Assembly: GCF_001562255.1 (NCBI RefSeq)
Contig: NZ_CP014301.1
Coordinates: forward strand, 5,239,501 to 5,303,500
Source of the DNA: Bosea sp. PAMC 26642
Lineage (GTDB): Bacteria > Pseudomonadota > Alphaproteobacteria > Rhizobiales > Beijerinckiaceae
Direction of reading: 5' to 3'
Length of the DNA stretch: 64,000 nt
Under the pieces are notes generated by a model. The model was not told where the DNA came from. It worked only from the letters and a program-made list of their open reading frames with translations, and ran no database searches. A program made the position numbers and the translations under genes. Below are positions 43,777 through 63,130 of this stretch, piece by piece (within the stretch, counting starts at the first letter, position 1; the number at the start of each line of letters is the position of its first letter).

Positions 43777-43852
43777 GCCGCTTTAGCTCAGCTGGTAGAG
43801 CACCTCATTCGTAATGAGGGGGTCGGGGGTTCGAATCCCTCAAGCGGCACCA
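43777..43852 (+). tRNA. tRNA-Thr (anticodon CGT)
   Basis: A full cloverleaf of 76 nt: acceptor GCCGCTT/AAGCGGC, D-stem GCTC/GAGC, anticodon stem CCTCA/TGAGG with loop TTCGTAA (anticodon CGT), T-arm GGGGG-TTCGAAT-CCCTC, discriminator A and an encoded CCA. It is intact and marks the left edge of the genomic island, because the integrase crossover leaves a complete 3' end. Confidence 0.97.
43836..43852 (+). repeat. attL: 3' end of tRNA-Thr
   Basis: TCCCTCAAGCGGCACCA is the 3' end of the tRNA gene and is nearly repeated at 63115-63130 in the same direction, missing one G. This is the expected attachment core of a P4-type integrase. Confidence 0.75.
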
Positions 43853-43875
43853 CTCCTACATTCACCGACGTCTTG

Positions 43876-43900
43876 AACCGCCCCGAAAGGGCGGTTTTTT
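43876..43900 (+). terminator. Rho-independent terminator after tRNA-Thr
   Basis: AACCGCCC (43876-43883), loop CGAAA, GGGCGGTT (43889-43896) and a T run to 43900. It lies inside the island end, so the island supplies the tRNA terminator. Confidence 0.92.
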
Positions 43901-43963
43901 GTTGGTTTTTTGGCTCGTTCATGCCGTTGGCGTCCTTTGGCGTACATTGACAGCCGGGCCGAT

Positions 43964-44016
43964 TGTTGGCCTTTCTGTTGGCCAGCCAACGCGGCCAACA
44001 GAGGCGAGGCCAACAG
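43964..44016. repeat. Left cluster of GTTGGCC repeats (probable integrase arm sites)
   Basis: TGTTGGCCTTTCTGTTGGCC (43964-43983) is followed by inverted copies GGCCAACA (43993-44000) and GGCCAACAG (44008-44016), the last ending at the integrase ATG. The direct pair recurs at 63034-63053 with one mismatch. Placement just inside both ends fits arm-type integrase or excisionase sites, and binding over the start region could also repress the integrase gene. Confidence 0.6.
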
Positions 44017-45261
44017 ATGCCGCTATCCGATGTCGCGATCCGCGCCGCAAAGCCCGCTGCCGCTGTGAAAAAACTGTCCGATGGTGGCGGCTTGCAGCTC
44101 TGGCTCATGCCCAGTGGCGCGAAGCTCTGGCGGCTGGCTTATCGTTTCGCCGGGAAGCAGAAGAAGCTGGCGATTGGACCATACCCCGCCATCGGCCTTT
44201 CCGACGCAAGAGCCAAGCGCGACGAAGCGAAGGCGCACTTGGTCGCCGGTCGTGATCCTTCAATTCAAAAGCAGGCCGAAAAGGCGCTGGCGCAGGAGGC
44301 GCAGGGTCAGACTTTCGCCAAGGTGGCTGCCGAGCTTCTCGAGAAGAAGCGGCGGGAAGGCAAAGCGGCCAACACACTTGCAAAACTCGAATGGCTGTAT
44401 GGGCTGACGAATTCTTCGATTGGCGATCGGCCGGTGACGGAAATCACCGCTGCAGAAGTGCTGGTTGTTCTGCGGAAAGCGGAAGGTAAGGGCCGACTCG
44501 AAACCGCCAAGCGCCTGCGCGCCGTCATAGGCGAAGTCTTCCGCTATGCCATTGCGACCGCTCGCGCCGTCAACGATCCCACCTTCGCACTTCGCGGCGC
44601 AATATCCGCTCCTGTGGTGAAGCACCGCGCAGCGATCACCGATCCGGTTCAGCTTGGCGGGCTGATGCGAGCAATCGAGGGATTCAACGGCCAGCCATCG
44701 ACGAATGCGGCGCTGAAGCTGATGGCATATCTCTTCCCTCGCCCTGGCGAGCTGCGGCTGGCCGAATGGCGAGAATTCGATCTAGGCAATGCGCTTTGGA
44801 CGATTCCGGCAATCCGCGCAAAAATGCGCCGTGAACATCGTGTGCCCCTGCCGCGTCAGGCACTGGTGATCCTGCAAGACCTCCAGCGCATCACCGGCGG
44901 CGACCGGCTGGTTCTGCCCGGCTATGGTGTTAGCGGCGGCGAAGGTCGGAAGGTGGAGCAACGGCCAATATCGGAAAATACGCTGAACGGTGCTCTTCGA
45001 CGCATGGGCTATGGCCAGGATGAAATGTCATCGCACGGCTTCCGAGCCGCCGCCTCGTCACTCCTGAACGAAAGCGGCAAATTCTCTTCCGACGCCATCG
45101 AAAGGGCGTTGGCGCATCAGGACCCTGACGCCGTGCGCCGCGCATATGCGCGTGGAGAGCATTGGAAGGAACGGCTCACGATGGCACAATGGTGGGCCGA
45201 TCAACTCGACGCATGGCGCGATGGCGCGCGAGTGATTTCCTTCGGGCCGAAGGCAGGATGA
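44017..45261 (+). CDS. Tyrosine recombinase/integrase, P4 type
   Basis: A 414-residue site-specific recombinase. The N-terminal DUF4102 domain (residues 1-85: L-S-D-G-G-G-L-Q-L-W-L, then I-G-P-Y-P-A-I-G-L-S-D-A-R) is typical of tRNA-targeting island integrases. Catalytic residues are Arg242 (F-P-R-P-G-E-L-R), His340 and Arg343 (H-G-F-R), His367 and Tyr377. The ATG at 44017 gives the standard M-P-L-S-D start; 54 bp of open frame upstream is occupied by repeats. It inserts and, with a helper, excises the island at tRNA-Thr. Confidence 0.95.
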   Translation: MPLSDVAIRAAKPAAAVKKLSDGGGLQLWLMPSGAKLWRLAYRFAGKQKKLAIGPYPAIGLSDARAKRDEAKAHLVAGRDPSIQKQAEKALAQEAQGQTFAKVAAELLEKKRREGKAANTLAKLEWLYGLTNSSIGDRPVTEITAAEVLVVLRKAEGKGRLETAKRLRAVIGEVFRYAIATARAVNDPTFALRGAISAPVVKHRAAITDPVQLGGLMRAIEGFNGQPSTNAALKLMAYLFPRPGELRLAEWREFDLGNALWTIPAIRAKMRREHRVPLPRQALVILQDLQRITGGDRLVLPGYGVSGGEGRKVEQRPISENTLNGALRRMGYGQDEMSSHGFRAAASSLLNESGKFSSDAIERALAHQDPDAVRRAYARGEHWKERLTMAQWWADQLDAWRDGARVISFGPKAG

Positions 45262-45442
45262 ACCCGCCTCAGTAGCAAGGTTCTCAGGGCTAGACTCTCG
45301 CACGTCGTAGGCGGGTCGTTTGCAGAAGTTGGCCAGGCCAACCTGACCGGTCCTGCTTCGGAAATTGACGCATTGCCGGGAAGCGGACATTCCAAGATTG
45401 CGATCTATCCTTATCCGCCGGTCTCTTCATTCCTGCGCCGAT

Positions 45443-48220
45443 CTACTGAAGATGCAATCTGACGTGTGGTCTGTTCCTGGGCTTGAAGTGACAGGTCGGG
45501 AAGTTTGAGCAGGAGCGGAACTCCCCGTACGGCCCGGTGCGTAACACCAGCACGCCCTGCTTGCAGGCGGGGCAGCTCTCCTCCCGGACGGCTATGCCAT
45601 CGGTGTCGGTGATCGACACCGCCCCGTCTTCTACGAGTTCGCGCAGGAATTCGGAGCATTGCCCGCGGACGGTGAACATTGCCACGCTCCGGCGCGCACG
45701 CGTCAAGGCCACGTAGAACAGACGACGCTCTTCACCCTGTGGGAAGTCATCTCCTTCGGGCATGGCCAACGTCAGCACGGGGTCGTCGGCGCGGGTGTTG
45801 GGGAAGCTTCGCCCGCGAAGAGCACTGAGCATCTCGGGCAGAATAACGTAATCCGCCTCGCTGCCCTTCGACCGGTGAATGGTCAGAAATGAAACCTCGA
45901 CCCAGCGATCGATACGGGTCTTGCGGGCCGGTAGGTATTGGCGATCGGCGTTGTAGCGGCCTAACAGGTAGACTGAGATCTTGCCGCTTCGACCCGGAGG
46001 GATGATTCCATCGCGAACGCCCTCGGCCAGTTTCAGGATGAATTGTTCGATCGCGGCGGCCAGCTTGTCCTTGGTATCCACTTGAAAGGCTTGGAGCACC
46101 GGACCTTGTGCCGGGATGACCGACCGTACTCGCTTTGCGATCTGGGCGGGATTCCTCGAAACGAATGCGCTGGACACGTCGCACAAGGCTTGCGGGCAGC
46201 GGAACGTCTGTTCCAGCTTCAGGACTTGGCCATGGCCAAACGACTGTCGGAAACCACTCATCACCGAAACGTCGGCGCCGGCGAAGCGATTGATCGACTG
46301 CCAGTCGTCGCCCACCGTGAATAGGAACCGGCCCGGTTTCTGGACTAATGCGCGGCACAAGCGGGCGCGGCCCTGCGAGGCGTCCTGGAATTCATCGACC
46401 ATTACCAGCTCATACGGGGCCTCGTAGCGGCCGCTTTCCAAGTGCCCTGCCGCCAGATTGAGCATGTCCTCGAAATCAATGCCGTCTTCGGCCGCCAAGG
46501 CGGCGTCCCACGCCTTCAGCAGGGGCGCCACGATGTCGAGGAACACCCGGTATCGGAGTTTGAAGTTACCCTCGGGAATGCCGTCCAAGCGCTGGCACAT
46601 CATTGGAATCGTCAAACAATTGCTTTTGGCGTGGCTGATGAAGGTACGCACCAAGCCTGTCAGTTCGGCCGCTTCCATGGGCTTTCGACCGCCCTCTGGA
46701 ATCTCCCGATCGGGATCGGGATTCAGTGCGGCGCCGCGCGCGGTCAGCTCGGCTTCCAGCCGCGGGAAATCATGGCCGTTGCGAAGACCATGCGAGGTGG
46801 TCTCGAACATCGAAGTGCCCATCTCAAGATGCTTTTGGCGTTTCCAACGAACCCCATCGAGGTACCCTCTGAACTCGGATGGCGGCATGCCATGGGCATC
46901 GAGCGCAAAGTGCTCGTGATAGAGATCCAGCCTGGGGTAGTGGAAGTCCGGCTTGTATTGGCGATGGTCGGCGTCGGCCGTCTCGTGCTCGTAACTCTCT
47001 TCGTAGCGGTACTCGACCCCGTTATAGAAGAGCCAGTCGGCGATCATGGCCTCCTCTTGGCTCTTGACCACTTCGCCAGCGGCGGTACGGATCCCGCCCT
47101 TGCCTTGGCCGTCCCAAACGTCCGCCTTGCCTGGCGCGCCCGGGCGGGCAAGGTCCCTCGCGAAAACGAAGCGAAACAAATCCCAACGCTGCCGAAAGGC
47201 GGGCGAGCTCTCCTTCAAACGCTCGGCGATGTCGGTCAGCTTACGGAAGCCGCTCACGGCATCGCTCGCCCAGTCCGGGACGGACGGTTTCCTTCCCGTG
47301 GCCTTGCCGATGATGCTCAAGCCCAAGGCATGAAAGGTGGAGGTCTCGACCATCACCTCCTCCAGACCCACGCGCTTAAAGGACTTCGCCGCACGCTCAC
47401 CGAGCTCTTCGGCGGCTTGCTTGTTGAACGCCAGCATCACGATGCGCTCGGGATCCACGAACCCGCGGTGAATGGCGTAGGCAGCCTTCGCCACCATGGT
47501 CGAGGTCTTGCCGGACCCGGCCGAGGCGACGAGTTGCACCCGGTTGTCGAAGCAGATGACGGCCCTGGCCTGTTCTTCGGTCAGGGGCTTGCTCTCGACC
47601 CGGTCGAGCAGATCCTTGCAGGCTTTCAGCTCGCTTTCGGTGTGTGCGGCGTTGAAGCTGGCCCAGGCGGGGTGAGGGTCGGCTTCCCATGCCGAGAGAG
47701 ATTGCTCCAGCGCGTCGGCCTTTGGACCCAGGCGCATCGCCACTGCGGGCTCCTTCAGCCGATCGCGAATGGCCTTGGCATCCATAGTCGGGCGAGTAGA
47801 TATCACGGAGGCCTGGAGTTCATGGGTGAACCATCGGCGCCGTTGGGAACAGGCTTGTTCCTGGCTGCTCTTGAACTCCAGCCATCGGTCGATCATCCGA
47901 TGCTGATTGTCGAGAAGCTCCAGCTCTTCACGAAGACGCTTCTCGATCAGAACGGCATTCAACGCCCGGGTCAGGGCTGCCCCTGCGGCGTTTGGTAACC
48001 CATCACCCGCCACCGCCCGCCCATGTTCGGGGTAAAAGGTGATGCCCGTCCAAAGCATGCCGGGCTGGACGCGGTAAGCCGATTCTACCTCGACATTGAC
48101 CCGGTGCGTGCGGCCCTCCACCGTCAGGGTTAGTTCAGGGCCGTCCAGTAGCAAGCGCCAATTGGGCGATCCCGTCAGTCGTCGCCCCAAGAAAGATGGC
48201 TTCCACTCGGTCACGGCCAA
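45443..48220 (-). CDS. Helicase IV-like UvrD-family helicase with nuclease segment and zinc ribbon
   Basis: A 925-residue superfamily 1 helicase resembling E. coli HelD (684 aa) in its N-terminal region and motifs. Walker A is A-S-A-G-S-G-K-T near residue 233, Walker B is V-M-V-D-E-F-Q-D-A-S, and later motifs are G-D-D-W-Q-S-I, T-I-H-R-S-K-G-S-E-A-D and Y-V-A-L-T-R-A-R. Between them, about 387-441, is a PD-(D/E)xK-like segment (K-S-Q-E-E, then Y-K-P-D-F and Y-H-E-H-F-A-L-D). The C-terminus is a topoisomerase-type zinc ribbon with four cysteines (C-P-A-C, C-S-N-F-P-T-C). TTG at 48220 or GTG at 48214 may be the start. It probably acts on DNA ends or repair intermediates, perhaps in phage defence. 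Confidence 0.85.
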   Translation of the reverse strand: MAVTEWKPSFLGRRLTGSPNWRLLLDGPELTLTVEGRTHRVNVEVESAYRVQPGMLWTGITFYPEHGRAVAGDGLPNAAGAALTRALNAVLIEKRLREELELLDNQHRMIDRWLEFKSSQEQACSQRRRWFTHELQASVISTRPTMDAKAIRDRLKEPAVAMRLGPKADALEQSLSAWEADPHPAWASFNAAHTESELKACKDLLDRVESKPLTEEQARAVICFDNRVQLVASAGSGKTSTMVAKAAYAIHRGFVDPERIVMLAFNKQAAEELGERAAKSFKRVGLEEVMVETSTFHALGLSIIGKATGRKPSVPDWASDAVSGFRKLTDIAERLKESSPAFRQRWDLFRFVFARDLARPGAPGKADVWDGQGKGGIRTAAGEVVKSQEEAMIADWLFYNGVEYRYEESYEHETADADHRQYKPDFHYPRLDLYHEHFALDAHGMPPSEFRGYLDGVRWKRQKHLEMGTSMFETTSHGLRNGHDFPRLEAELTARGAALNPDPDREIPEGGRKPMEAAELTGLVRTFISHAKSNCLTIPMMCQRLDGIPEGNFKLRYRVFLDIVAPLLKAWDAALAAEDGIDFEDMLNLAAGHLESGRYEAPYELVMVDEFQDASQGRARLCRALVQKPGRFLFTVGDDWQSINRFAGADVSVMSGFRQSFGHGQVLKLEQTFRCPQALCDVSSAFVSRNPAQIAKRVRSVIPAQGPVLQAFQVDTKDKLAAAIEQFILKLAEGVRDGIIPPGRSGKISVYLLGRYNADRQYLPARKTRIDRWVEVSFLTIHRSKGSEADYVILPEMLSALRGRSFPNTRADDPVLTLAMPEGDDFPQGEERRLFYVALTRARRSVAMFTVRGQCSEFLRELVEDGAVSITDTDGIAVREESCPACKQGVLVLRTGPYGEFRSCSNFPTCHFKPRNRPHVRLHLQ

Positions 48221-49199: not shown

Positions 49200-49850
49200 C
49201 TACGGACCCTTGCCAGCGACGCGGTCGTAGACGAGGTTGTAGACGTCGCGATAGCTCGGGTCGTTGTAGAGGGGCACGCGTAGAACGATGTCGTCCGCGG
49301 TTTCGCCTGCGTGAAGCGTTAGGACGACGGCATCCGAGGCCCAGAGGGCAGCAAGGAGCGCGTCTATGCCTTTCTTGTCGACAGGCATCATTATCGTGGC
49401 GTTCGGCATCCCGCCCATTGGACCGAACTGCAGCGTAAAGAATGGCGCCTTCGCGAATTCTGCGTTCAGGGCGAGGTTGCCGACGAGGTGACCTTTGCGA
49501 TCCGCATATCCCGGCTCGACGATGATGCTGACGATCCGATGGGGTGGCATCAACGGTGAGATGCCTTCTTCCATGCGCACGTGCATGTGGATGATGATCT
49601 TATCAAGCTGTTCGCCGACGCCCTCGACGGTCCATTTCCGGCCGAACTCGAAGCCCTCGAGGAAGATCGTCCACGCGGTATAGTGGACCGAGGTTCGATC
49701 GCCCTTGATCGAGCCGCCGGTTGATAGCGGCGCGCCCGCGGGCGGTACGAACGCAGACTGCCAAGGCACGGTGCCGGGACGTGGCTCGACCTTATTCTGC
49801 TCCCTGCCGCGCCCACGGAAAAGCATGCTGAGTTCGTCTAGAAGCCCCAC
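49200..49850 (-). CDS. Hypothetical protein (216 aa)
   Basis: An unrecognised cytoplasmic protein. GTG at 49850 is chosen because a strong GGAGGGGGGA ribosome site stands 5-6 bases before it and it yields M-G-L-L-D-E-L-S-M-L-F, like the start of its downstream partner; ATGs at 49880 and 49889 lie upstream in frame. There are no membrane segments. The middle (D-K-I-I-I-H-M-H-V-R-M-E-E-G) and the end (V-V-L-T-L-H-A-G-E-T-A-D-D-I-V-L-R-V-P-L) alternate in a beta-strand-like pattern. Confidence 0.65.
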   Translation of the reverse strand: MGLLDELSMLFRGRGREQNKVEPRPGTVPWQSAFVPPAGAPLSTGGSIKGDRTSVHYTAWTIFLEGFEFGRKWTVEGVGEQLDKIIIHMHVRMEEGISPLMPPHRIVSIIVEPGYADRKGHLVGNLALNAEFAKAPFFTLQFGPMGGMPNATIMMPVDKKGIDALLAALWASDAVVLTLHAGETADDIVLRVPLYNDPSYRDVYNLVYDRVAGKGP

Positions 49851-49933
49851 GAAATCCCCCCTCCAGCCTGCTTCATCCATTGCGTGCATTTTGACCCGCA
49901 AGTAACGTCTCCGCGGACTGTGGGGAATTCAAG

Positions 49934-50389
49934 ATGACTGATGCAAGCGCTCCGGCGCCAAGCGGGCTGTCCAACGCCTTGGCGATCGCGCTTGCGATCG
50001 TCTTGATGGTGCCGGGCTATTTTGTCGGCGGCCTGGCCGTGATCGTCTACACATTCCTGAGCGATATCGGCTTCGGTATGCGGTCGGATGGATCTTGGAT
50101 TCCGTTTTTCGACGGACTGATGACCATCATCTGGCGAGTGATCGCACCTGAGTTCATCAGAGGCGTCGTCGCCGCCGGCGCCGCAGTCTGGTTGACGTTG
50201 CTGGTTGTCAAAAGGGCCAACCGGCAGACCGTCGGCGTCGCGACGATCGCGATCTACGTCACAGTCGTGGGCGTCCTCGCGCTGCTGTCGATCGTGATGA
50301 AGGGCTTCAACGGCTACCTGCTCCTCAGCATGGCGGCGTTGGCGGCCGGCTTGGTCGTTGGCGGGCTGACCGCCATGGAAGCGAAGTAA
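49934..50389 (+). CDS. Hypothetical four-helix membrane protein (151 aa)
   Basis: A 151-residue protein with four hydrophobic segments at about residues 15-45, 72-92, 100-122 and 126-146, and short polar loops. I do not recognise a family. The start is the ATG at 49934. Its stop codon overlaps the start of the next frame (TAATG at 50387-50391), so it was translated together with that now broken gene. It is divergent from the 216-aa gene, so this patch may have been a small unit of membrane and soluble proteins. Confidence 0.7.
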   Translation: MTDASAPAPSGLSNALAIALAIVLMVPGYFVGGLAVIVYTFLSDIGFGMRSDGSWIPFFDGLMTIIWRVIAPEFIRGVVAAGAAVWLTLLVVKRANRQTVGVATIAIYVTVVGVLALLSIVMKGFNGYLLLSMAALAAGLVVGGLTAMEAK

Positions 50390-50838
50390 TGGCCGACTGG
50401 GACCCTATGACCTGCAACGATGCTGGGATGCTTCGCTCCTTCATGAAAAACGTGAAGGAGAAGCGACCGGATCTCTACCAGATCGCTTTCGCGCAACTCG
50501 CGAAGGTCGAGGGGAAGAACGTTGACGACCCGGTGGAACTGGAATTCTAGCGGGCAGTAGCCGCCTAGGAGCAGATCTATCTGGAGGAGTCCGGCCAGAA
50601 GCGGGCCAATAATCGCGAAAAGAGCGGCCGGCTGATGGAGGCCTTGGACGCCTGCAATCACAAGCACAGACGCGGAACTGTTTTCTTGGCGGCCACCGGC
50701 ATCGCTCGCCAGCAGAAGGCTTGGGTCACGAATTTCGAAAATGCGGTCGCCGCGTTACACGACGCGGCTGGGAGAGGTCCCGGTCGTCGGGAGGGCGTGA
50801 GCAGCAATCGCGCTATGCGTCGTCTTCCTCCCAGTTGA
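50389..50838 (+). pseudogene. Hypothetical gene interrupted by two in-frame TAG codons
   Basis: Beginning at ATG 50389, coupled to the membrane protein gene, 53 codons read M-A-D-W-D-P-M-T-C-N-D-A to V-E-L-E-F, then TAG at 50548-50550, five codons (R-A-V-A-A), and TAG at 50566-50568. The same frame then stays open to 50838 with protein-like content (E-Q-I-Y-L-E-E-S-G-Q-K-R, then A-W-V-T-N-F-E-N-A-V-A-A-L). A single gene inactivated by two point changes is the best reading. Its end overlaps the 3' end of the convergent Shedu gene by 26 bp. Confidence 0.6.
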
Positions 50839-52333
50839 CGTCCTCCCAATCGGCATCGGGCTCATCGGAGCTATCCTCATCGTCGAGAAGGACCGGCTCG
50901 ATTGTGCTCGCGTTGGAATTGCTCGACAGGAACTCATGTAGCGAGTTCAGCTTTTCGAGAAGCTCATCGAAGGTGACGACGGCGACGTCCCTCAGATTGC
51001 TTCGATACAATTCCAACGATTTCCTTTCGTGTTTCGCATCTGGAATCCTGCCTGCAATCACAGTGCATTGGACGGCGTAAGCCCAGATATCTCGAATATC
51101 CTCATTCTCTTTTTTCTGGGTTATTTCCTGCTGTAGGCGATATCTTTGGTCGAGTATCTGCGTGACGGAGCCCGAGAGCTCCTTTGAGGGCGAGTACACC
51201 TCTCCGCGGTACGCGGCCTTGTCGAGAAGTTTGGTGGAAGGCTTTTTGATCTCGATCAGCGAGACGTTGCCCAGCAGACCGGAACGAACGAGGTAGTCGG
51301 CGATCTTGCCCGTGGACAGTTTGAATTTCCCACCGCCGACCGAGACCTGCTCGCCGAAAATCGATACCGGATATCCGAAAGCAAGCTTCAGGATGAAGGG
51401 GTTAGCCGTAAGGAACTTCTGCCAGTGGCTCTCGCTGAGCTGCTTGCTGATCTTCTCCTTAAAGACCTCGATCAGCCTCGTCAGGCTAACCAGCTCTATC
51501 TCTCTGTTGAGTTTGTACAACTCTTCCGGAGCGTCGGTGGCGAGGTCCTTGGCGGCCGCCCGCACGGTTTTGACGGCGGATTCAGCGTTGGCTGTTTTGC
51601 GAGCACGCGAGCGCTTCCCACTCAGCGCATGTGCAACCTTCTCCCGCAGCACATCCGTCCCTTGGCGAAACGCATCAGCGGATACAGTCTTGAGGACCTT
51701 GTCGGTCAGTTCCGAGGTCACATAGGCGGCCTTGTCCCTTGCGGCGAATGCGAGCGCGGCATCGTGTGCGCGCTTCATCGCCCTTCGGACCTCGTGGTAA
51801 TGGGCCAACGGGAGGCGAATGTCGGCGCCGTCTCGGCTGATCTCGGTATCGCGGCAGAATACGATGCCGCTTACACCTTCAATGCCGTCGAAGGCTTCGA
51901 TGATATACCGTAACGGGTATATCAGGCCGAACCCTTCATTCATTGAGCGTTGGAAGCCCGAGGGAAGATCTATGAGGTCAGACGCGGATGAGGTCTGCGT
52001 TTCGTCGTCATCGATTTGCTCTTTGATGGAGCGTTGGTTTTCAATCGCCAGTTTCTCTATGTCCCCATACTTCGCATCGAGCATGTAGACACTGCCCGCC
52101 TTAGTAAAAATTGGGTAGGTTCTGAGAAGGCGGGTCTGGGGGGCGTAGTCAGCCAGCAGATGTTTCTTGCGCGCTGGCTTGGAATTTCCGGCGCCGAATA
52201 GGTCAGCAGCGCCGTTGTGGATCAGATTGGCTTCAAAGGTGAGCTCCTGAAAGCCCGCCTGGTCTTGGGTCAATGTCCAAGTGGCGCTGTCCTCATTCCG
52301 GACGCCATGAAAGATCACCTGCTTGTTCGACAT
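50813..52333 (-). CDS. sduA: Shedu anti-phage protein SduA (DUF4263 nuclease)
   Basis: A 506-residue protein. The C-terminal nuclease domain (about residues 298-460) has the Shedu/DUF4263 pattern: W304 in S-H-W-Q-K-F-L-T-A-N-P-F-I-L, Asp346 in G-K-I-A-D-Y-L-V, Glu361-Ile-Lys363 in L-I-E-I-K-K-P (the D...ExK active site), then G-E-V-Y-S-P-S-K-E-L-S-G-S-V-T-Q-I-L with its conserved glutamine. Residues 1-290 form the variable N-terminal part that in this family senses or binds the target. The last 23 residues are almost all acidic. Shedu is a one-gene defence system, so no partner is needed. It sits in a defence island between broken genes. Confidence 0.85.
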   Translation of the reverse strand: MSNKQVIFHGVRNEDSATWTLTQDQAGFQELTFEANLIHNGAADLFGAGNSKPARKKHLLADYAPQTRLLRTYPIFTKAGSVYMLDAKYGDIEKLAIENQRSIKEQIDDDETQTSSASDLIDLPSGFQRSMNEGFGLIYPLRYIIEAFDGIEGVSGIVFCRDTEISRDGADIRLPLAHYHEVRRAMKRAHDAALAFAARDKAAYVTSELTDKVLKTVSADAFRQGTDVLREKVAHALSGKRSRARKTANAESAVKTVRAAAKDLATDAPEELYKLNREIELVSLTRLIEVFKEKISKQLSESHWQKFLTANPFILKLAFGYPVSIFGEQVSVGGGKFKLSTGKIADYLVRSGLLGNVSLIEIKKPSTKLLDKAAYRGEVYSPSKELSGSVTQILDQRYRLQQEITQKKENEDIRDIWAYAVQCTVIAGRIPDAKHERKSLELYRSNLRDVAVVTFDELLEKLNSLHEFLSSNSNASTIEPVLLDDEDSSDEPDADWEDVNWEEDDA

Positions 52334-52831: not shown

Positions 52832-52955
52832 TGCGGCCCGTGCGCCGGCAGTACCCTTTCAGTTTGATCTCTACCGCGGCAGATTGGCAGGGTGCAATGT
52901 AGGTTGGTCTTCAGGCTCAAAGCTAAGCTAGGTGAGGTCATTGGCGGGCGGCGAT

Positions 52956-54947: not shown

Positions 54948-55083
54948 TCTCCAAAGACCGCGTCAAACGCGGTCAAATGCAGTCAGGAACCGTCGATAGC
55001 GGTCGGCCCGTTCCTGCACGTCGCATACCGCGCTCTCTCCAGTGTCACCGCAGACGTTCACGCGGCCACATTGGAGACCACCT

Positions 55084-55293
55084 ATGTCCAACATCGATCG
55101 CCTGATTCCGGTTGCCGAAGCTTTCGCAATGGTCGGGATGCGCCGCACCAAGGGCTATGCCGAAGTGACAGCCGGTCGGCTTTTCATCGTCCGCAATGGG
55201 CGCCGGACGTTTATCCGCGCCAGCGAGGTGCAGCGCTATATCGACAGCCTGGACGCGTCGTCGCAGCCTGCGCAGCAAGCCTATGGGCGCTGA
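55084..55293 (+). CDS. AlpA/excisionase-like helix-turn-helix protein (69 aa)
   Basis: A 69-residue DNA-binding protein: L-I-P-V-A-E-A-F-A-M-V-G-M-R-R-T-K-G-Y is a helix-turn-helix of the excisionase/AlpA type, and G-R-R-T-F-I-R-A-S-E-V-Q-R-Y-I-D-S-L is its wing and dimer helix. Such proteins set the direction of recombination or activate an integrase gene. ATG at 55084. The next gene starts 3 bp after its stop. Confidence 0.85.
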   Translation: MSNIDRLIPVAEAFAMVGMRRTKGYAEVTAGRLFIVRNGRRTFIRASEVQRYIDSLDASSQPAQQAYGR

Positions 55294-55296
55294 TCG

Positions 55297-55731
55297 ATGC
55301 CCCGTCGCGGTGCGGTGCTGCGCGGTATCAGCAAGCATCAGAGTTACGACATCGCCGAAACCGCCCGCATCCTGCGCGTCGCTCGTGGCACGGTGGCAAG
55401 GTGGCTAAAGGGCGGGCTACCGGCGATCAGGGACCGGAAGCCTTACCTAATCCAGGGTGCAGACCTGATCGCATTCCATTCGGAGCGCAAGGCGCCGGCG
55501 CAGAAGTGCCGGCTGGCGCAGTGCTACTGCTTTCGTTGCCATGTGCCCCGCAGCCCGGCTCTGGGCATGGCCGATCTCGTCATCGCCGGGGGCCCGACCG
55601 GCAATCTCCAGGCGCTGTGCGAGGTATGCACCACGCCCATGCACAAGCGGGTTTCGCTGAAGCATCTCGACGCTCTTCGTGCCGATCTGGACGTGACGAT
55701 CAAACAGGCTCCCGCACGCATAACCGAGTGA
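55297..55731 (+). CDS. Helix-turn-helix protein with zinc-binding cysteines (144 aa)
   Basis: A 144-residue protein. The N-terminal part has a helix-turn-helix (Y-D-I-A-E-T-A-R-I-L-R-V-A-R-G-T-V-A-R-W-L-K-G-G-L-P-A-I). The C-terminal half has five cysteines (K-C-R-L-A-Q-C-Y-C-F-R-C, then L-C-E-V-C) that could hold a zinc ion. It starts 3 bp after the excisionase-like gene and is followed after 45 bp by a recombinase gene, so the three form an operon. Likely a second recombination directionality or regulatory factor. Confidence 0.78.
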   Translation: MPRRGAVLRGISKHQSYDIAETARILRVARGTVARWLKGGLPAIRDRKPYLIQGADLIAFHSERKAPAQKCRLAQCYCFRCHVPRSPALGMADLVIAGGPTGNLQALCEVCTTPMHKRVSLKHLDALRADLDVTIKQAPARITE

Positions 55732-55776
55732 GTCAACCCCTGTCTGAAAGACACATTCCCAAAGGGATCGATCGCC

Positions 55777-56883
55777 ATGAAAAAACACCACCCGAAAAAC
55801 GAGCGCATCAAGCGCGAATATATTTCGTGGCTCCGGCATGCCGATGGGCAGTCCGACGCGTCCGTCAGTCAGGCGGCGGCGGCCATCGCCGAATTCGAGC
55901 GCTCGACGCGGTACAAGGATTTCGCGCTGTTCCACCGTGAGCAGGCGGTGGCTTTCAAGCGCCAGCTTCAGGACCAGCGTAACGCAGAGACTGGCAAGCC
56001 TCTGGCAACAGCGACGGCTCATGCGCGGCTGATGGCGGTCAAGAAGCTCTTCAAGTTCCTGATCGGCCGGAGCGGGTATCGACGCATGATCGCAAGCGAC
56101 CTGGAGTATTTCAATCTGACGGCCGGCGAGGCTCGCATAGCGACCGCCCCACGCGCCGCCAACCGCCCTGTTCCGAGCCTCGCGATGATCCGGCGCGTCG
56201 TCGAGTTGATGCAGGAGGGGACGGACATTGAAAAGCGCGACCGGGCACTGATCGCCTTCGCCATCGTGTCCGGTGCTCGCGACAATGCCATCGCCAGCTT
56301 CCGCCTGAAGCATGTGGATGCCGCTGGCAGGGCAGTCATTCATGAGCCGCGTGAGGGCGTGCGGACGAAATTCAGCAAGAGCTACCAGACAGCGTTCTTT
56401 CCCGTCGGCGACGACCTAGGCACAATTGTAGCGGATTGGACGGCGCATCTTGCGGAGAGGCTGTTGTTCTCTCCCGACGATCCGCTGTTTCCGGCGACAG
56501 CGGTCGGTTTCGATGCCGCTGGCAGCTTCGCGCCGACCGGCCTCGACCGCCGCTTCTGGTCCAATGCCGAACCTATCCGCCGCATCTTTCGCCAAGCCTT
56601 TACAACGGCGGGCCTGCCCTACCACAACCCGCATTCCTTCCGCAGCACGCTTGGCGCCCTTGGCCAGACGCTGTGCCGGACGCCGGAAGAGATGAAGGCG
56701 TGGTCTCAGAACCTTGGCCATGAGGATGTGCTGACGACGCTGACGAGCTATGGTGCGGTTCCGGCGCACCGCCAGGCGGACATTCTGAAGGCCTTGGCGC
56801 AGAAGAACGACAACAACCACGAGCCGCTGACGCAAGCGACGATCCAGCGCGTTCTACAACATCTCCAGAAGGCATCAGCCTAA
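55777..56883 (+). CDS. Second tyrosine recombinase (368 aa)
   Basis: A 368-residue tyrosine recombinase. The N-terminal arm domain (about 1-110) is followed by the catalytic part with Arg168 (S-G-A-R-D-N-A-I), His286 and Arg289 (H-S-F-R), His315 (L-G-H-E-D) and Tyr325. It lacks the DUF4102 domain of the tRNA-type integrase, so it belongs to another group. The ATG at 55777 follows an AAGGGATCG ribosome site. With the two preceding DNA-binding proteins it may be a separate mobile unit nested in the island, or a regulatory recombinase. Confidence 0.9.
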   Translation: MKKHHPKNERIKREYISWLRHADGQSDASVSQAAAAIAEFERSTRYKDFALFHREQAVAFKRQLQDQRNAETGKPLATATAHARLMAVKKLFKFLIGRSGYRRMIASDLEYFNLTAGEARIATAPRAANRPVPSLAMIRRVVELMQEGTDIEKRDRALIAFAIVSGARDNAIASFRLKHVDAAGRAVIHEPREGVRTKFSKSYQTAFFPVGDDLGTIVADWTAHLAERLLFSPDDPLFPATAVGFDAAGSFAPTGLDRRFWSNAEPIRRIFRQAFTTAGLPYHNPHSFRSTLGALGQTLCRTPEEMKAWSQNLGHEDVLTTLTSYGAVPAHRQADILKALAQKNDNNHEPLTQATIQRVLQHLQKASA

Positions 56884-56936: not shown

Positions 56937-57875
56937 ATGCGCGTAGCTGATATGATGCAACCGGACGGCCACGTTTTCTTGAAAAGCGAGTGGGGTCCCC
57001 TAACCGATTATTGGCCTGCCGTGTCCTTCACGAAACGATCCGTGGGCATAGAGCTCAGTAATCGCTTCCAGCCAGGTCGGGATGTGCTCATCTACGTCGG
57101 GACGACGAGCGAGAACACGCACGATCCTGCGCACCGCGCCCGTTTGCTATCGGCTGTGGTGCCCGAGCCAAACCGCATCCATGAGACGAAACGAATCATC
57201 CCGCCAGATAGTTGGTCGGCGTCTCTTGAGGAGTACGGCGACCGCTGGCCACATTCGCTCGCCATCGTGGATGCGGCGAACTTCGTCAGTTCGCCATTGC
57301 CATACGCTCGGCAGGTGATCCCCCACGCATACGCGTCATTCGCGGAAACTAGGAACCGAGGCAGATTCGTAGAGGCATTCGAGACCGAGCGCGAAGCCGT
57401 CATGACGCTCGAAATTGAACCGATCCGACTTAACCTCGCGGCAGATGTCGTGGCCTATCTCGAAATGCGAGCCAGCGCGAGCGTGAAGCTTCCTGCATCC
57501 GTGAAGCAGGAAGTCTACCGCATGACGATGCTGATCATCGAGCGCGTCAAGAAGGGCGGCGAGTTGTCCGTGCGGATCAATCCGCAGCGCACAGCTCCAA
57601 ATTTCTCGGATCTTTCGGCCCTCATCACGAAGCTCTGGCAGGAGAGCCAGGGGGGAAGTTGCGCATTGTGCGGAGCTGCCCTCCTGGCGAGCACGACAAA
57701 CCGGATGTTGCAACCATCCGCTGATCGGATCGATAGCGCGAACGGTTCATATGGCGAAGACAATGTTCAGATCACACACCTCGCGTGCAACTTGGCCAAG
57801 AATGCCTACGGTATCGACCATTTCGAGGAATGGATTGCGGCTTTGCGGGGAGTGGACTTGACCGCCGACCGATAA
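56937..57875 (+). CDS. HNH-family endonuclease (312 aa)
   Basis: A 312-residue protein with an unrecognised N-terminal 200 residues and a C-terminal HNH-like nuclease: C-A-L-C-G-A-A, P-S-A-D-R-I-D-S, and the D-N-V-Q-I-T-H-L-A-C-N-L-A-K-N segment, with two C-x-x-C type knuckles (first C-A-L-C, second single cysteine). Start ATG at 56937 after GGGAGG. It lies between the second recombinase and a restriction system, and fits a defence nuclease, but its target is unknown. Confidence 0.82.
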   Translation: MRVADMMQPDGHVFLKSEWGPLTDYWPAVSFTKRSVGIELSNRFQPGRDVLIYVGTTSENTHDPAHRARLLSAVVPEPNRIHETKRIIPPDSWSASLEEYGDRWPHSLAIVDAANFVSSPLPYARQVIPHAYASFAETRNRGRFVEAFETEREAVMTLEIEPIRLNLAADVVAYLEMRASASVKLPASVKQEVYRMTMLIIERVKKGGELSVRINPQRTAPNFSDLSALITKLWQESQGGSCALCGAALLASTTNRMLQPSADRIDSANGSYGEDNVQITHLACNLAKNAYGIDHFEEWIAALRGVDLTADR

Positions 57876-57948
57876 CCAATGAGCGGGTGAAATGATCTCC
57901 TGCATTCCTGCCATCGATCAATTTAGTGCATCGCACTGGAGGCCCTTG

Positions 57949-58002: not shown

Positions 58003-58035
58003 GCGAATTAAGAATCGGCAGGGGTGGGGCGCGGC

Positions 58036-60280
58036 GTGTTGACAGAAGACGAGAAGGCCGAAGTCGCCACGCTGGTGGCGGCGGGGAAGCCGCTGCCTGA
58101 CAAATACCGCTGGAAGCTCTTCGCACAATCGCGCGAGACGGAGCTGATCTGGCCCGGCAAGACCTCGGAAGTCGCCAACGTGGTGCTGCCGTTCCAGACA
58201 ATCGAACAGATCGACGAGCCGCGCGCAGAAAGCGCCGGCCCCGTAGGCGACCTGTTCCAGCTTGGCGCAGGCGGACGGCAGAGCGGCGGCTGGAGCAACA
58301 AGCTGATTTGGGGCGACAACAAGCTAGTGCTGTCGTCGCTGAAGAATGGTCCGCTGCGGAAACAGATTGAAAACGCTGGTGGACTGAAGCTGGTTTATAT
58401 CGATCCGCCCTTTGACATATGAGCTGATTTCTCAGTGCAGGTTGACGTCGGCGACGGCGACAGCCTCTCAAAAGAACCAAGTGTCATCGAAGATGTCGCA
58501 TATCGGGACACGTGGGGTCGCGGCGTTGATTCCTATATAGCTATGATTTATGAACGCATTAATTTAATTAAAGAATTGATGGCGAATGACGGGAGCTTGT
58601 ATGTTCATATTGGTCCTCAAATAAATCATTTTGTAAGGAATATTTTGGACGAAATTTTCACTCAGAAAAATTGTCGACGTGAGATTATCTGGAAACGCGT
58701 ATCTTCTCGCAGTCATGGAAATTACTATCCGGCGACCCACGACTGTATTTTGTTTTACTCCAATTCAGACGATGTAATCTGGAATCAACTTTTTGAGCCT
58801 CTGAGCGACGAATATATAGCAAATAAATATAGATTCAGTGATTCTGATGGTCGCAAATATAGGAAAGATAACTGTTTAAATCAAAATAGAAATCGACCAA
58901 ATCTTACATATGAATGGAATGGAAATACTAGAACGTGGCGATGGACAAAAGAGAATATGCAAATCTTGCATAATTCAGGGAGATTGAATTTATACAAGCT
59001 CAGGAATTCCTGAGTATAAGCGATATTTAGATGAGTCAGAGGGTGTTGCCTTGCAGTCCGTTTGGACTGATATTCGCCCGATAAATTCACAGGCGTCTGA
59101 AGATACAGCGTATTCAACGCAAAAGCCGGAAAGCCTTGCGGAGCGAATTTTAAAAGCATCATCTAATCCCGGCGACCTTGTCGCTGATTTCTTCTGCGGA
59201 TCTGGCACAACTCTCGCCGTTGCGGAAAAACTTGGCCGCAAATGGATCGGCTGCGATCTGGGCCGTTTCGCCATCCATACCTCGCGCAAGCGGCTGATCG
59301 GCGTTCAGCGGGAACTGAAGGCGCAGGGCAAGCCCTACCGGTCCTTCGACATCCTCAACCTCGGCAAATATGAGCGCCAGTTCTTCGCCGGCATCGATCC
59401 GACGTTGCCGGAGGCGGAGCGCCGGGCGCAATCGGCCCACAAGGAGGAAGATTACCTCGCGCTGATCCTCTCGGCCTACAAGGCGCAGCGCCTCGCGCAA
59501 TCGCCGCCGTTCCACGGCGCGAGGGGCAGCACGTTGGTGCATGTCGGCCCCGTGGATGCGCCGATCACGCGCGCCGCCGTCAATGAGGCAGTGGAGGCGG
59601 CCGTCAAGCTGGGGGCGACCGCCGTCGATTGCATCGGCTTCGAATTCGAGATGGGGCTGATCCCGCAGGCGACGGAGGACGCCGCCGCAAGGGGCGTGCG
59701 TCTCGCGCTGCGCTATATTCCCAAGGACGTGTTCGACAAGCGTGCCGTGGCCAAGGGGCAGGTCGTCTTCTACGACGTGGCCTATCTCGAAGTGGCTCCG
59801 AAGGTGAAGGGGCTGGAAGCGACCGTAACGCTGGCCGATTTCGGCGTATCCTATCGCCAGGACGACGCCGACGCGCTGACTGGCGAACTCAAGCCCGGCG
59901 GCTCCAAGGTAACGGTTGATCAGGGCCAGGTCGTCAAGATCGCCAAGGCGAAGGACGGAACCGTCTCGCGCGAGGTGCTGACGAAGCAATGGACGGACTG
60001 GATCGACTACTGGTCCGTCGATTTCGACTACCACGCCAAGAAAGAGGTCATCACCGTCACGCTACCGGACGCATCGGGCCGGATGGTGGACCGGCCGCAA
60101 TGGACGGGCGGCCACATTTTCGAGAACGAGTGGCAGAGCTTCCGCACGCGCCGCGACCGCAAGCTGGAGCTGACATCAGCCCCGCACACCTATCCGGCGA
60201 AAGGGCGATACGCCATCGCCGTGAAGGTGATCGACATCTTCGGCAACGACACGACCAAGGTGGTGGAGGTAGTGGTCTAA
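58036..60280 (+). pseudogene. Type III-like DNA methyltransferase (Mod), broken and mosaic
   Basis: Read through, this is a DNA N6-adenine methyltransferase of the beta class: I-D-P-P-F-D (the D-P-P-[YF] motif) near residue 125 comes before the F-x-G-x-G binding motif (A-D-F-F-C-G-S-G-T-T). Two lesions stop it. TGA at 58420-58422 stands where relatives have glycine (D-P-P-F-D-x-G-A-D-F). One extra A at 58987-58988 shifts the frame; removing it joins L-I-Y-T-S-S-G-I-P-E-Y. The middle, 58540-59160, is A+T rich (35% and 27% G+C in lines 58561 and 58861) against 68% in line 59401. The last 60% is intact and runs into res by TAATG. Start GTG 58036 or TTG 58039. Confidence 0.82.
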
Positions 60281-62967
60281 TGCCGGTGCATCCCGACTTT
60301 CCCAAGGATCCGTTCGCGATCATCGATCCGGATCATCGCTGGTATCCCGGCGAGGCAATGCTCGGAAACGCCGGCCTTCAGAACCTCTTGCCGCCGCTGG
60401 TGGATTCTATCCGCCGCAAGGTGACGGACTGGCGATTGAGCGGCTATTCCGGCGCATCGCGCACCACGCGCGCGCTGCTGCGGTGGTGGTTCCAGACTGC
60501 GCATGTCGTGCCGCAGGGCGACGGGACGATGGCACGCTTCCGCTGGTATTTCGCGCAGCGCGAAGCTGTCGAGACAGCGATCTGGCTTTTTGAGGTGGCG
60601 AAGGCGCACGACCCCTACGCGCTGATCAAGTTCGATTCGTCTGGTGCCGTCTCCAAGCAGATGTTCCTGGAGAATTGGACGCGCTACGTGCTGAAGCTGG
60701 CGACCGGTGCTGGCAAGACCAAGGTCATGTCGATTCTGATCGTCTGGAGCTATTTCCACAAGGCATACGAGGCGGACAGCGCGCTGTCCCGCAACTTCCT
60801 GGTGGTCGCACCGAACATCATCGTGCTGGATCGGCTGCGCACGGATTTCGAGGGCGGGCGCATTTTCTTCGCCGATCCACTTCTGCCGGAGAACGGCCAC
60901 GACGGACAGAACTGGCAGGATGATTTCCAGATCAGCGTCCACATCCAGGACCAGATCGGGCATGTCCCGGCGGAGGGGAACCTGTTCCTCACCAATATCC
61001 ATCGCGTCTTCGATGGCGACGGCCGCGCGCCGTCCTTCGATGACGTAGACACAACGGATTATTTCCTCGGCCGCAGGCCGGTGACGAAGACGACCGACAG
61101 CCAGGTGGACCTCGGCCGCATCGTCCGGGAGGTGAGCGACCTTGTGGTGCTGAACGACGAAGCGCATCACCTTCACGAGCGGAATGCCTGGTTCCGCGCG
61201 ATCGAGGACATTCATAACGCGCTAGTGCAGAAAGGCGGCGGACTGGCGGCGCAGTTCGACGTAACGGCGACGCCGAAGCACAGCAATGGCGCAATCTTCG
61301 TTCAGACCGTGTCCGATTACCCGCTTGTGGAGGCCATCCATCAGGGCGTCGTCAAGACGCCAGTGGTCCCGGACCTCGCCTCGCGCGCCAAGCTGGAGGA
61401 GCACCAATCCGCCGACTTCAGCGAACGTTACCGGGACTTTCTCCACTTGGGCTACCGCGAGTGGCAGAAGTCGTTCGAAGAGCTGTCGCGCGTCGGCCGC
61501 AAGCCGGTGCTCTTCGTCATGACGGACGATACGCGCAACTGCGATGCCGTCGCCGACTATCTCGGCAAGACCTATACTGAGTTGAACGACGCGGTTCTGG
61601 TGATCCACACCAAGGCCAACGGCGACATTTCGGAATCCTCCAGCGGCAAGAGCAAGGAGGAGCTAGACCGCCTGCGCCAGGCCAGCCGCGATATCGATAA
61701 GACGGAGGACAAGAACCGCGCCGTCGTGTCCGTCATGGTGCTGCGCGAGGGCTGGGATGTGCAGGGCGTCACCGTAATCGTGGGGCTGCGCGCCTATAGC
61801 TCGGAAGCCAAGATATTGCCCGAACAGACGCTGGGGCGCGGCCTGCGCCGGATGTTCCGGGGGCAGGATGTGCAGGAGAAGGTGAGCGTGATCGGCACGC
61901 CGGCCTTCATGGATTTTGTGGAGGGCATCCGCAGCGAAGGCGTCGAGCTGGAAATGCGGCCCATGGGCGACCGGACGCCGGGAGCCGGGCCGATGGTGGT
62001 GGAGGTGGACCTCGACAACCCTGACAAGGACATCCAATCGCTCGATATCGAACTGCCGGTTCTGACGCGCCGGCTGGAGCGCGAATACAAGAACCTGGAG
62101 CAGCTCGATCCGGCGAGCATCGAACACCGCACCATGCCGCTGAAGGCTTTCAGCCCGGCGGAGCAGCGGCAGATCGTCTTCAAGCATATCGACGACGACA
62201 CGGTGAGCCACGTCACCGAAATGGGCGAAGGCTTCACGCCGACGCCGCAGAACGTAATCGGCTTCTTCGCCAACGCCATCCGCCGCGATATGCGGCTGGT
62301 GGGGGGCTTCGAAATCCTCTTCGGCAAACTGAAGGGCTTCGTGTCGGAACGGCTCTTCGGAAAGCTGGTGCCGCTCGACGACCTGAACGTGCTGCGCAAT
62401 CTCTCCGAACCGGAGGTGGTGGCCACGATCATGCGCGGCTTCAAGAAGGCGATCAACGAACTGACAGTGGTGGATCGCGGCACGTCTCGCGTGGAGAACC
62501 GGATCAAGCTGTCGCACGCCCGGCCGATGGTGGTGAAGCAGCAAGATGACATGCGGCCCAAGCGCAGCCTATTCAACCGCGTGGTAGGCGACAGCGCTCT
62601 GGAGCTGGCGTTCGCGGGCTTTCTCGACGATTGCCCGGACATCCTGTCATTCGCCAAGAATGCGCAGCACACCGGCTTCAGCATCGAATACCGGACGGCG
62701 GACGGATCGATATCGTCTTACATCCCCGACTTCCTGGTGAAGCGATCGGACAAGGAAGTCTGGATCGTCGAAACCAAAGGTCGCGAGGACGTAAACGATC
62801 CGGAGAAATGGCGACGCCTGAAGCTCTGGTGCGCCGACGCCAGCGCCACCGAAGACGGTGTTGTCTATCGGGCGCTCTTCGTGCCGGAGGAGGAATGGGA
62901 AAAGCGGGCGCTGAAGCGCTTCGATCAGGCGGTGGCGGTTTTTGACGGGGTGGAGCCGTTGGGCTGA
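60280..62967 (+). CDS. Type III-like restriction enzyme, helicase-nuclease subunit (Res)
   Basis: An 895-residue protein with a superfamily 2 helicase: Walker A L-A-T-G-A-G-K-T-K-V at about 140-149, the V-L-N-D-E-A-H-H motif II near 290, and V-M-V-L-R-E-G-W-D-V-Q-G and Q-T-L-G-R-G-L-R-R-M of the second half. The C-terminal nuclease is a P-D-F-L-V then I-V-E-T-K-G-R-E active site. Its ATG overlaps the mod stop (TAATG). Type III Res proteins cut DNA only in complex with Mod, so with Mod broken this protein is probably idle unless another Mod exists in the cell. Confidence 0.88.
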   Translation: MPVHPDFPKDPFAIIDPDHRWYPGEAMLGNAGLQNLLPPLVDSIRRKVTDWRLSGYSGASRTTRALLRWWFQTAHVVPQGDGTMARFRWYFAQREAVETAIWLFEVAKAHDPYALIKFDSSGAVSKQMFLENWTRYVLKLATGAGKTKVMSILIVWSYFHKAYEADSALSRNFLVVAPNIIVLDRLRTDFEGGRIFFADPLLPENGHDGQNWQDDFQISVHIQDQIGHVPAEGNLFLTNIHRVFDGDGRAPSFDDVDTTDYFLGRRPVTKTTDSQVDLGRIVREVSDLVVLNDEAHHLHERNAWFRAIEDIHNALVQKGGGLAAQFDVTATPKHSNGAIFVQTVSDYPLVEAIHQGVVKTPVVPDLASRAKLEEHQSADFSERYRDFLHLGYREWQKSFEELSRVGRKPVLFVMTDDTRNCDAVADYLGKTYTELNDAVLVIHTKANGDISESSSGKSKEELDRLRQASRDIDKTEDKNRAVVSVMVLREGWDVQGVTVIVGLRAYSSEAKILPEQTLGRGLRRMFRGQDVQEKVSVIGTPAFMDFVEGIRSEGVELEMRPMGDRTPGAGPMVVEVDLDNPDKDIQSLDIELPVLTRRLEREYKNLEQLDPASIEHRTMPLKAFSPAEQRQIVFKHIDDDTVSHVTEMGEGFTPTPQNVIGFFANAIRRDMRLVGGFEILFGKLKGFVSERLFGKLVPLDDLNVLRNLSEPEVVATIMRGFKKAINELTVVDRGTSRVENRIKLSHARPMVVKQQDDMRPKRSLFNRVVGDSALELAFAGFLDDCPDILSFAKNAQHTGFSIEYRTADGSISSYIPDFLVKRSDKEVWIVETKGREDVNDPEKWRRLKLWCADASATEDGVVYRALFVPEEEWEKRALKRFDQAVAVFDGVEPLG

Positions 62968-63033
62968 TTGGTGCGACGATCTGCCGTCCGTGATCGCTGG
63001 CGGCCGCTCTAAACCGCTTCCATTCGCCCGGAA

Positions 63034-63053
63034 TGTTGGCCTTTTTGTTGGCC
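63034..63053. repeat. Right copy of GTTGGCC pair (probable integrase arm sites)
   Basis: TGTTGGCCTTTTTGTTGGCC matches the left copy at 43964-43983 at 19 of 20 positions. It lies 61 bp inside the right end of the island. This pairing of a 20-bp repeat near each end supports the island limits. Confidence 0.62.
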
Positions 63054-63114
63054 TTTACACGATAAAATGCCTTCAAGTATGATACAAATCAATAATTTAA
63101 CTCGTTTCTGAGGT

Positions 63115-63130
63115 TCCCTCAAGCGCACCA
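63115..63130 (+). repeat. attR: imperfect copy of tRNA-Thr 3' end
   Basis: TCCCTCAAGCGCACCA repeats 43836-43852 except for one lost G. It marks the right limit of the island. Beyond it there is no gene until the TRAP transporter. Confidence 0.72.

Follow-up and report, generated by a model that had tools for sequence, protein, structure and literature searches.

A tRNA-Thr(CGT) island of Bosea sp. PAMC 26642 as a likely member of a widespread family of restriction islands with a second tyrosine recombinase

Restriction-modification (RM) systems are very common bacterial defences, and dedicated vehicles for them have been poorly defined so far. The Gamma-Mobile-Trio islands, attributed to Mahata 2024, are said to pair a recombinase-bearing gene trio with defence cargo. 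In the available text of their source, the SBW25 islands I23, I44 and I55, termed 'phage defence elements', occupy a transfer-messenger RNA (tmRNA) or tRNA site and carry a tyrosine integrase, alpA, a direct repeat and defence cargo including a type II RM system, with no transfer genes (PMC12595487). The same text gives them a shared region of ~18 kb with YqaJ, helix-turn-helix (HTH) and Gp2-like proteins, RadC being also common in the class (PMC12595487). For the islands in tRNA genes (tDNA) of the Islander collection, the crossover subsites named in the available text are the anticodon loop, the T loop and the T/acceptor junction (PMC4383910). The locus described here lies on contig NZ_CP014301.1 of Bosea sp. 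PAMC 26642, in a stretch of 64,000 nucleotides hereafter called the window (G000:C1:5,239,501-5,303,500; positions below are window coordinates). It is an integrative island of ~19.3 kb (43,836-63,130) at tRNA-Thr(CGT), next to a P4-type integrase and with arm-type repeats inside both ends. The island is probably moved by this integrase into the tRNA 3' end, and probably belongs to a family of restriction islands that is widespread, mostly compact and built on a recurring backbone order.

Compared with the SBW25 islands as the available text presents them, this family has in common the type of site, the tyrosine integrase, alpA, the direct repeat, the defence cargo and the lack of transfer genes, but differs in its size (~10 kb in mapped relatives), in a unit formed by an HTH zinc-ribbon protein (HTH-ZnR) and a second tyrosine recombinase (TyrR), and in RM genes lying beside the right attachment site (attR), a second recombinase going unmentioned there for SBW25 (PMC12595487). 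The SBW25 class is the nearest published kind found, and the TyrR/HTH-ZnR unit is not described in that text (PMC12595487). With the Islander islands the family shares the tyrosine integrase, the tDNA target and the displaced tDNA fragment, whereas its right fragment is mostly one base short and its crossover would fall at CACCA and not at the three subsites listed in the available text (PMC4383910). Gamma-Mobile-Trio islands resemble it in recombinase and defence cargo, being likened here by description only, from the part of the source available (PMC12715929). Among the window open reading frames (ORFs) scanned (small ORFs only partly), no Pfam hit was found for the RadC, YqaJ and Gp2-like core of I55-like islands, and relaxase or transfer genes of integrative and conjugative or integrative and mobilizable elements (ICE/IME) were absent from the scanned ORFs. 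Phage satellites, such as P4 and the phage-inducible chromosomal islands (PICI), carry capsid-redirecting or packaging genes and a primase, none of which occurred among the window ORFs scanned. No published description of the layout tRNA, P4 integrase, HTH-ZnR, TyrR and RM was found in the literature searched, which covered few subscription papers and is weak evidence of absence.

The limits of the island were given by several features. The tRNA-Thr(CGT) gene (43,777-43,852, + strand; ARAGORN, Rfam RF00005) is the integration target, and its last 17 bases (43,836-43,852) form the left attachment (att) repeat copy. The adjacent ORF (43,963-45,261, + strand; 432 amino acids (aa) as listed, the true start being probably internal) encodes the P4-type tyrosine integrase, with Arm-DNA-bind_3, Phage_int_M and Phage_integrase domains (PF13356, PF22022, PF00589). 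At the far end, the right att repeat TCCCTCAAGCGCACCA (63,115-63,130, + strand) equals the tRNA 3' end minus one base; with up to two mismatches allowed it was the sole match within the 64 kb window, where a mean of 0.08 is expected by chance. Inside the ends, the left arm-type repeat (43,961-43,983, + strand) consists of two TGTTGGCC units, and its sequence GATTGTTGGCCTTTCTGTTGGCC at 43,961 is 91% alike to GAATGTTGGCCTTTTTGTTGGCC at 63,031, the right arm-type repeat (63,031-63,053, + strand). Two features of P4-type islands were accordingly present, namely an arm-domain tyrosine integrase adjoining a tRNA and a tRNA 3'-end repeat at the far end (minus one base), and the limits proposed in the initial annotation from the tRNA, its linked P4-type integrase, the right repeat and short repeats inside each end were borne out. 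The G+C content was 0.48-0.64 over 44-63 kb, against 0.64-0.68 in the 8 kb leftward and 0.61 in the final kb on the right side.

A third feature, absence at the site in relatives, was found in five of the six same-genus genomes in which the DNA after tRNA-Thr was compared (G009, G010, G020, G024, G035 and G039), while the sixth, G024, had an island of its own of this type at that tRNA. This twin is 10.5 kb long, has comparable arm repeat pairs at both ends and the right repeat at its far end, and matches the present island over the integrase region (81% DNA identity) and over 53,081-56,657 (71%). At the protein level, identity was 87% for the integrase, 66% for a relative of a 671-aa protein, 67% for HTH-ZnR and 61% for TyrR. 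The TyrR gene of the twin is followed by a Mod/Res pair different from the present one, and the twin has the same end signature. In the tRNA-side stretches of 19 relatives, a related integrase was detected in two, G024 (87%) and G037 (57%).

In the present copy, the backbone includes the gene for the 671-aa variable protein ('slot 1'; 52,932-54,947, + strand), followed by an AlpA/excisionase-like small HTH protein (55,084-55,293, + strand; phrog_66, E 1.9e-4), HTH-ZnR (55,297-55,731, + strand; 144 aa, HTH_17, PF12728, with a zinc ribbon) and TyrR (55,777-56,883, + strand; 368 aa, PF00589; R168, K198, H286, R289, H315 and Y325). The six catalytic positions of TyrR were invariant in 84/84 aligned sequences (five same-genus sequences and 79 of 80 further loci; L122, split over two frames, fell below the score filter), and the four Cys of HTH-ZnR were kept in 75/75 aligned partners. 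The slot-1 variable gene, HTH-ZnR and TyrR are best read as the island backbone.

A profile of five TyrRs retrieved 302 relatives in named genomes, of which the best 80 were kept. By record title, these 80 loci belonged to Alpha-, Beta- and Gammaproteobacteria, Acidobacteria, Desulfobulbaceae, Nitrospinota, Nitrospirota and others. HTH-ZnR and TyrR formed a co-conserved unit, the HTH-ZnR gene being present in 75 loci and close upstream of TyrR in 74. Of the 80 loci, 64 had a P4-type integrase at any distance, and 60 had one no more than 7 kb from TyrR. The recurring gene order was tRNA, P4 integrase, variable gene, often AlpA, HTH-ZnR, TyrR, RM and right repeat, with Leu(CAG), Thr(CGT), Phe, Met and other tRNAs as targets; in several Gammaproteobacteria the integrase faced the HTH-ZnR/TyrR unit, at tmRNA. 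The 20 islands with a mapped right repeat (excluding the present one, G024 and L081) measured 7.1-13.7 kb, with a median of 10.0 kb. TyrR was detected at E 1e-60 in 13/289 genomes of the class (the present one included) and at E 1e-40 in two plasmid records; phage records gave nothing at E 1e-15, and none of the solved structures matched its sequence at E 0.01.

In the 12 kb that follow the integrase, 26/31 TyrR islands had RM profile hits, compared to 4/34 P4-integrase controls (p = 2.9e-9), and a methyltransferase motif proxy gave 27/31 and 8/34, respectively (p = 2.7e-7). The 31 islands were those of the 80 TyrR loci with forward layout and 10 kb of sequence. For the controls, a manual choice of 40 from 67 rows (40 genomes of the family) favoured long contigs and excluded the present island and two TyrR-adjoining places of G091; 34 were left after removal of six (four short, one without a called integrase and one with TyrR). 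Pfam annotation of the cluster representatives agreed with the names (N6_N4_Mtase, HsdM, ResIII, EcoEI_R_C, Methylase_S, MmeI), and L061 and L069, counted via a further cluster, encoded type ISP enzymes. Five TyrR loci lacked a profile hit; of these, L086 encoded two methylases (C5 and N6), and L068 had the PADLOC candidate pair PDC-M65. Over the whole of the fetched DNA, 49/80 loci had a profile hit, many of the others being incomplete stretches. In the att-mapped islands, RM profile hits lay between TyrR and attR in 18/20, and the other two (L086 and L108) had DNA methyltransferase domains there, so that a methyltransferase was present in 20/20. The first ORF of at least 150 aa after TyrR was on the same strand in 25/31 islands, with a median gap of 135 bases. 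For the 23 rows with an RM type label (I, III, IIL; mixed and unassigned rows excluded), the TyrR tree required seven changes of type, against 5-7 in 200 label shuffles (mean 6.7), so RM type does not follow TyrR descent.

These counts also bear on the possibility that defence genes simply accumulated at a tRNA hot spot, in which case the RM link would be general to such islands. The Shedu and helicase segment of the present copy has such a look and the tRNA flank is hypervariable, but the scarcity of RM hits in the controls (four of 34), and their absence from all five controls of the same integrase subfamily (>500 bits) without TyrR, make this explanation improbable. As for cassette exchange just after TyrR, the DNA similarity of related pairs dropped near the TyrR stop, with no common DNA site seen there, and most non-coding DNA would be unalignable at that divergence anyway; such exchange was set aside as unproven.

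The missing base of the right repeat recurred across the family. In 37 TyrR islands with a tRNA by the integrase (the present one and G024 included), the downstream DNA was searched for the terminal 14-15 bases of the tRNA, either complete or lacking any one base, a procedure that substituted repeats would escape. The deleted form was found in 19 islands, to which L081, whose tRNA tail had been mis-taken, was added. The same base (~tRNA nucleotide 70; position 7-8 from the 3' end) was hence missing in 20/23 TyrR islands whose repeat reaches the tRNA end, at Thr, Leu (two anticodons), Phe and Met tRNAs. No repeat was found in 12 of the 37, several of them on short contigs, nor in any of nine mirror-layout TyrR loci. 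In L112 (Met) the missing base was unambiguous, namely nucleotide 70 in standard tRNA numbering. None of the other deletion positions (14 tried) gave a match, save a trivial last-base variant of intact repeats. Among 11 controls without TyrR in the stretch seen, the deletion occurred in L137 and L140 and nine had no repeat. The signature was also considered as a rule of the integrase subfamily and rejected: predicted for four of these nine islands, it was found in 0/4, a whole-genome search giving two intact copies 26.8 and 41.7 kb off (perhaps not island ends) and, for two islands, no exact repeat. The one-base signature is common but not universal, and these counts give no clear link to TyrR.

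Displaced fragments are free to decay, and the initial annotation had called the direct repeat imperfect. The repeat itself is real and one base short of the tRNA end; simple decay as the cause of the gap is very improbable, given that one and the same base has gone in 20 of 23 repeats and at four tRNA species. A loss made anew at each integration, with strands exchanged further upstream (T/acceptor junction) and a base being lost from the host fragment as it is displaced, is a less remote alternative, though still unlikely. In its favour, the T/acceptor junction is among the crossover subsites named in the available Islander text (PMC4383910), and the two host-variable bases (AA or TT) of the right repeat agree with the host allele in both the present island and G024, as for a displaced host fragment. 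It would require a precise and recurrent deletion by the enzyme, and some islands lack the deletion.

In the favoured reading, that of an island moved by its P4 integrase, the integrase would recombine the attP site of the element with the tRNA, as suggested by its domains, the repeats and the twin island; the AlpA-like protein would, judging from its family, steer excision; and the RM system would protect and retain the element. TyrR would most likely act on the excised circle or on entry DNA, a putative substrate, under the control of HTH-ZnR. The attP would be one base short, with strand exchange 3' of that base, in CACCA. As a functional host tRNA must have the base, this is the simplest arrangement. 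A more far-reaching proposal is advanced tentatively, and is less likely than not: the islands of Proteobacteria and other phyla would form a class of their own, namely self-contained integrative restriction elements of ~10 kb based on two tyrosine recombinases, the P4 integrase serving the tRNA and the strictly conserved TyrR, with its HTH-ZnR partner, being dedicated to RM cargo (e.g. for circle resolution, or for timing restriction after entry), with an attP one base short and exchange at the 3'-terminal CACCA, outside the three listed subsites, so that the element's own end is marked unlike its target.

Several observations weigh against these readings. The repeat was intact in three TyrR islands (L089, L108 and L127), in two others (L064 and L069) a 16-base repeat ended before the deletion place, and the frequency of the deletion (20/23 TyrR islands) did not differ clearly from that in islands without TyrR in the stretch seen (2/4, the other two intact; p = 0.14). 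The TyrR set was itself the source of the RM profiles, though not of the motif test, and the hand-picked controls came from one family whereas TyrR occurs across phyla. No RM genes were seen in three of the 31 TyrR islands, L085 and L087 being without a PADLOC hit and L116 having weak candidate hits only, with right ends unmapped. No second copy per locus of the conserved DNA element preceding TyrR (see below), as a possible partner for recombination by TyrR, was detected except in a tandem TyrR duplicate in L120 (mean excess of 0.12 base over shuffles).

In G009, G048 and G052, finally, the 15-17 kb fetched contained the HTH-ZnR/TyrR unit but no P4 integrase; in one of them (G048:C20, L053; 16.5 kb free of a P4 integrase) the unit adjoins type I RM genes. 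Such loci would be expected if the unit and its variable gene were an independent mobile element nested in the P4 island and not part of its backbone. Two Methylomonas loci (L070 and L127), which have close TyrRs but different integrases and target tRNAs, point the same way and suggest module exchange. The order relative to integrase, RM and attR nevertheless recurs in the mapped islands, and TyrR clades mostly track the target tRNA (11 changes of target on the TyrR tree, a figure without shuffle comparison). In addition, no clean ends of the unit were seen in same-genus genomes, nor any end repeats belonging to it in the comparisons made. A nested element is therefore regarded as improbable, if clearly less so than defence-gene accretion, and the unit is kept as backbone of the P4-integrase-moved island.

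An island class that is compact, keeps its backbone and exchanges its RM type would allow new RM or defence genes to be found by position, between TyrR and attR. It also raises the question of why an RM carrier retains a second recombinase that is, by its residues, predicted to be catalytically complete. The one-base att signature offers a marker for island ends and a testable statement on the place of strand exchange in tRNA genes.

The flank of tRNA-Thr was further inspected in the genus, where the left flank matched in all 61 genomes searched (the present one included). In G009, G010, G020, G035 and G039, which lack the island, the first block after the tRNA shared with the present genome corresponded to its 85.9-91.8 kb (window coordinates), i.e. 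42-48 kb downstream and beyond the window, and 3-14 kb of other DNA lay between the tRNA and this block; for this reason no clean empty site was available. The initial annotation had predicted an empty site joining tRNA-Thr directly to the dctM region. This did not hold: the dctM/TRAP operon was located ~17-32 kb from the tRNA and in opposite orientation in four of these five relatives, and in G020 at a distance of ~0.95 Mb. The ancestral neighbour of the tRNA in these genomes is therefore not dctM. Cargo kept without the integrase, or an uninterrupted region spanning the site, which had been named as evidence against an insertion, was seen in none of the six relatives. From 63,131-64,000 to ~85.9 kb, the dctM/TRAP operon is moved and inverted relative to the four relatives, and none of the six regions compared matched the 67.2-85.9 kb stretch over more than 150 bases, which makes the flank of tRNA-Thr a larger variable zone. 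A tRNA T-arm-like fragment GGTTCGAATCC was spotted by eye 3' of the right repeat (63,268-63,300), where ARAGORN calls no tRNA. Elsewhere in the same genome, a second P4-type integrase lies at tRNA-Leu(CAG) (G000:C1:5,131,797-5,158,572), with an intact tRNA-end copy 26.8 kb off and no TyrR within the 12 kb examined.

The gap preceding TyrR (55,732-55,776, + strand) contains a short family-conserved DNA element, weak in the present copy. Located between the HTH-ZnR stop and the TyrR start, mostly ~34 bases 5' of the TyrR start codon, it was found (e.g. as AACAGTGACTT) in 22/80 loci against a shuffled maximum of 3, a comparison that overstates significance because the loci are related. It may be an operator or a recombinase site. 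RNA structure in this gap was considered, and none was obtained with RNAalifold. In L120 (8110-10462), where TyrR genes are in tandem, a copy of the element precedes the second gene (28/29 bases alike). An operator-like palindrome AACCGAATTCG, often in two copies 21 bp apart, was observed 5' of AlpA in 15 loci (alphaproteobacterial, e.g. L084 and L090) and was not found in the copy of the window.

The 671-aa protein had 12 matches (its own cluster included), with a 69% relative from Bosea sp. and, beyond the G024 relative, distant ones beside the same HTH-ZnR/TyrR pair in three further same-genus genomes; its family was not found among the 80 TyrR loci, where other genes fill the slot. A known fold was set aside, as its model (predicted local distance difference test, pLDDT, 46; >70 solely in some helices, chiefly near both ends) was too poor for a fold search. 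A single family for slot-1 genes was likewise rejected: profile comparison grouped the 671-aa with the 448-aa proteins and, separately, four other clusters, and the groups were not joined. TyrR loci may adjoin other cargo too, as in L085 (11524-19092), where a 2523-aa ORF after TyrR, without a PADLOC hit, looked polyketide-synthase-like by eye.

The present copy is an expanded form of the island, with ~8 kb including Shedu and a helicase between the integrase and the variable gene, and with a broken RM methylase. This segment encodes a UvrD-family helicase resembling helicase IV, in which a long insert separates motifs and the C terminus bears a topoisomerase-type zinc ribbon (45,443-48,220, - strand; PF00580, PF12462, PF01396; NF008276 at 365 bits, under the cut-off of 543), a 233-aa protein with six relatives found and no Pfam, PADLOC, NCBIfam or PHROG match (49,200-49,901, - strand), a hydrophobic 151-aa protein, membrane-like by eye and without a family match (49,934-50,389, + strand), and the Shedu nuclease SduA (50,813-52,333, - strand; PDLC00384 at 515.6 bits, PF14082, PDB 8ti8 at E 1.6e-29). 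The best PADLOC model covers residues 13-477 of the 506 of SduA, and the protein, a predicted nuclease, has the C-terminal nuclease domain of Shedu.

Downstream of TyrR, a type III-like RM system comprises the methyltransferase Mod (58,024-60,280, + strand), broken by an in-frame stop near 58,420 and a frameshift near 58,990-59,050, and the restriction subunit Res (60,277-62,967, + strand), whose frame is open (PF04851 at 52 bits; NF046055 at 281 bits, under the cut-off of 800) and which had no relative at E 1e-60 among 120 other genomes. The Res helicase domain of type III RM systems is hence present (PF04851), and an intact Mod is absent. As type III Res depends on Mod, the system is probably silent; the Mod lesions may be genuine mutations or an assembly error. 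The defence-type cargo noted in the initial annotation was recovered in Shedu (515 bits), the helicase, an HNH protein and Mod/Res. Its suggestion that unassigned genes are defence candidates could apply to the HNH protein and to the 233/151-aa pair, but the 671-aa protein, HTH-ZnR and TyrR are better read as backbone.

The broken Mod and open Res adjoin this HNH nuclease (56,937-57,875, + strand; PHROG matches, no Pfam match), which has a possible YTH/EVE/ASCH-like N-terminal domain, i.e. possibly a fold like that of N6-methyladenine (m6A) readers. VcaM4I-type EVE-HNH modification-dependent endonucleases join a reader-like N-terminal fold to a C-terminal HNH domain. The HNH domain is common to both, while the reader-like fold gave no more than a weak match (Foldseek rank 13, E 0.2; not among sequence matches at E 1), and the fold lists are compatible with other folds too. 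The protein is a candidate modification-dependent endonuclease.

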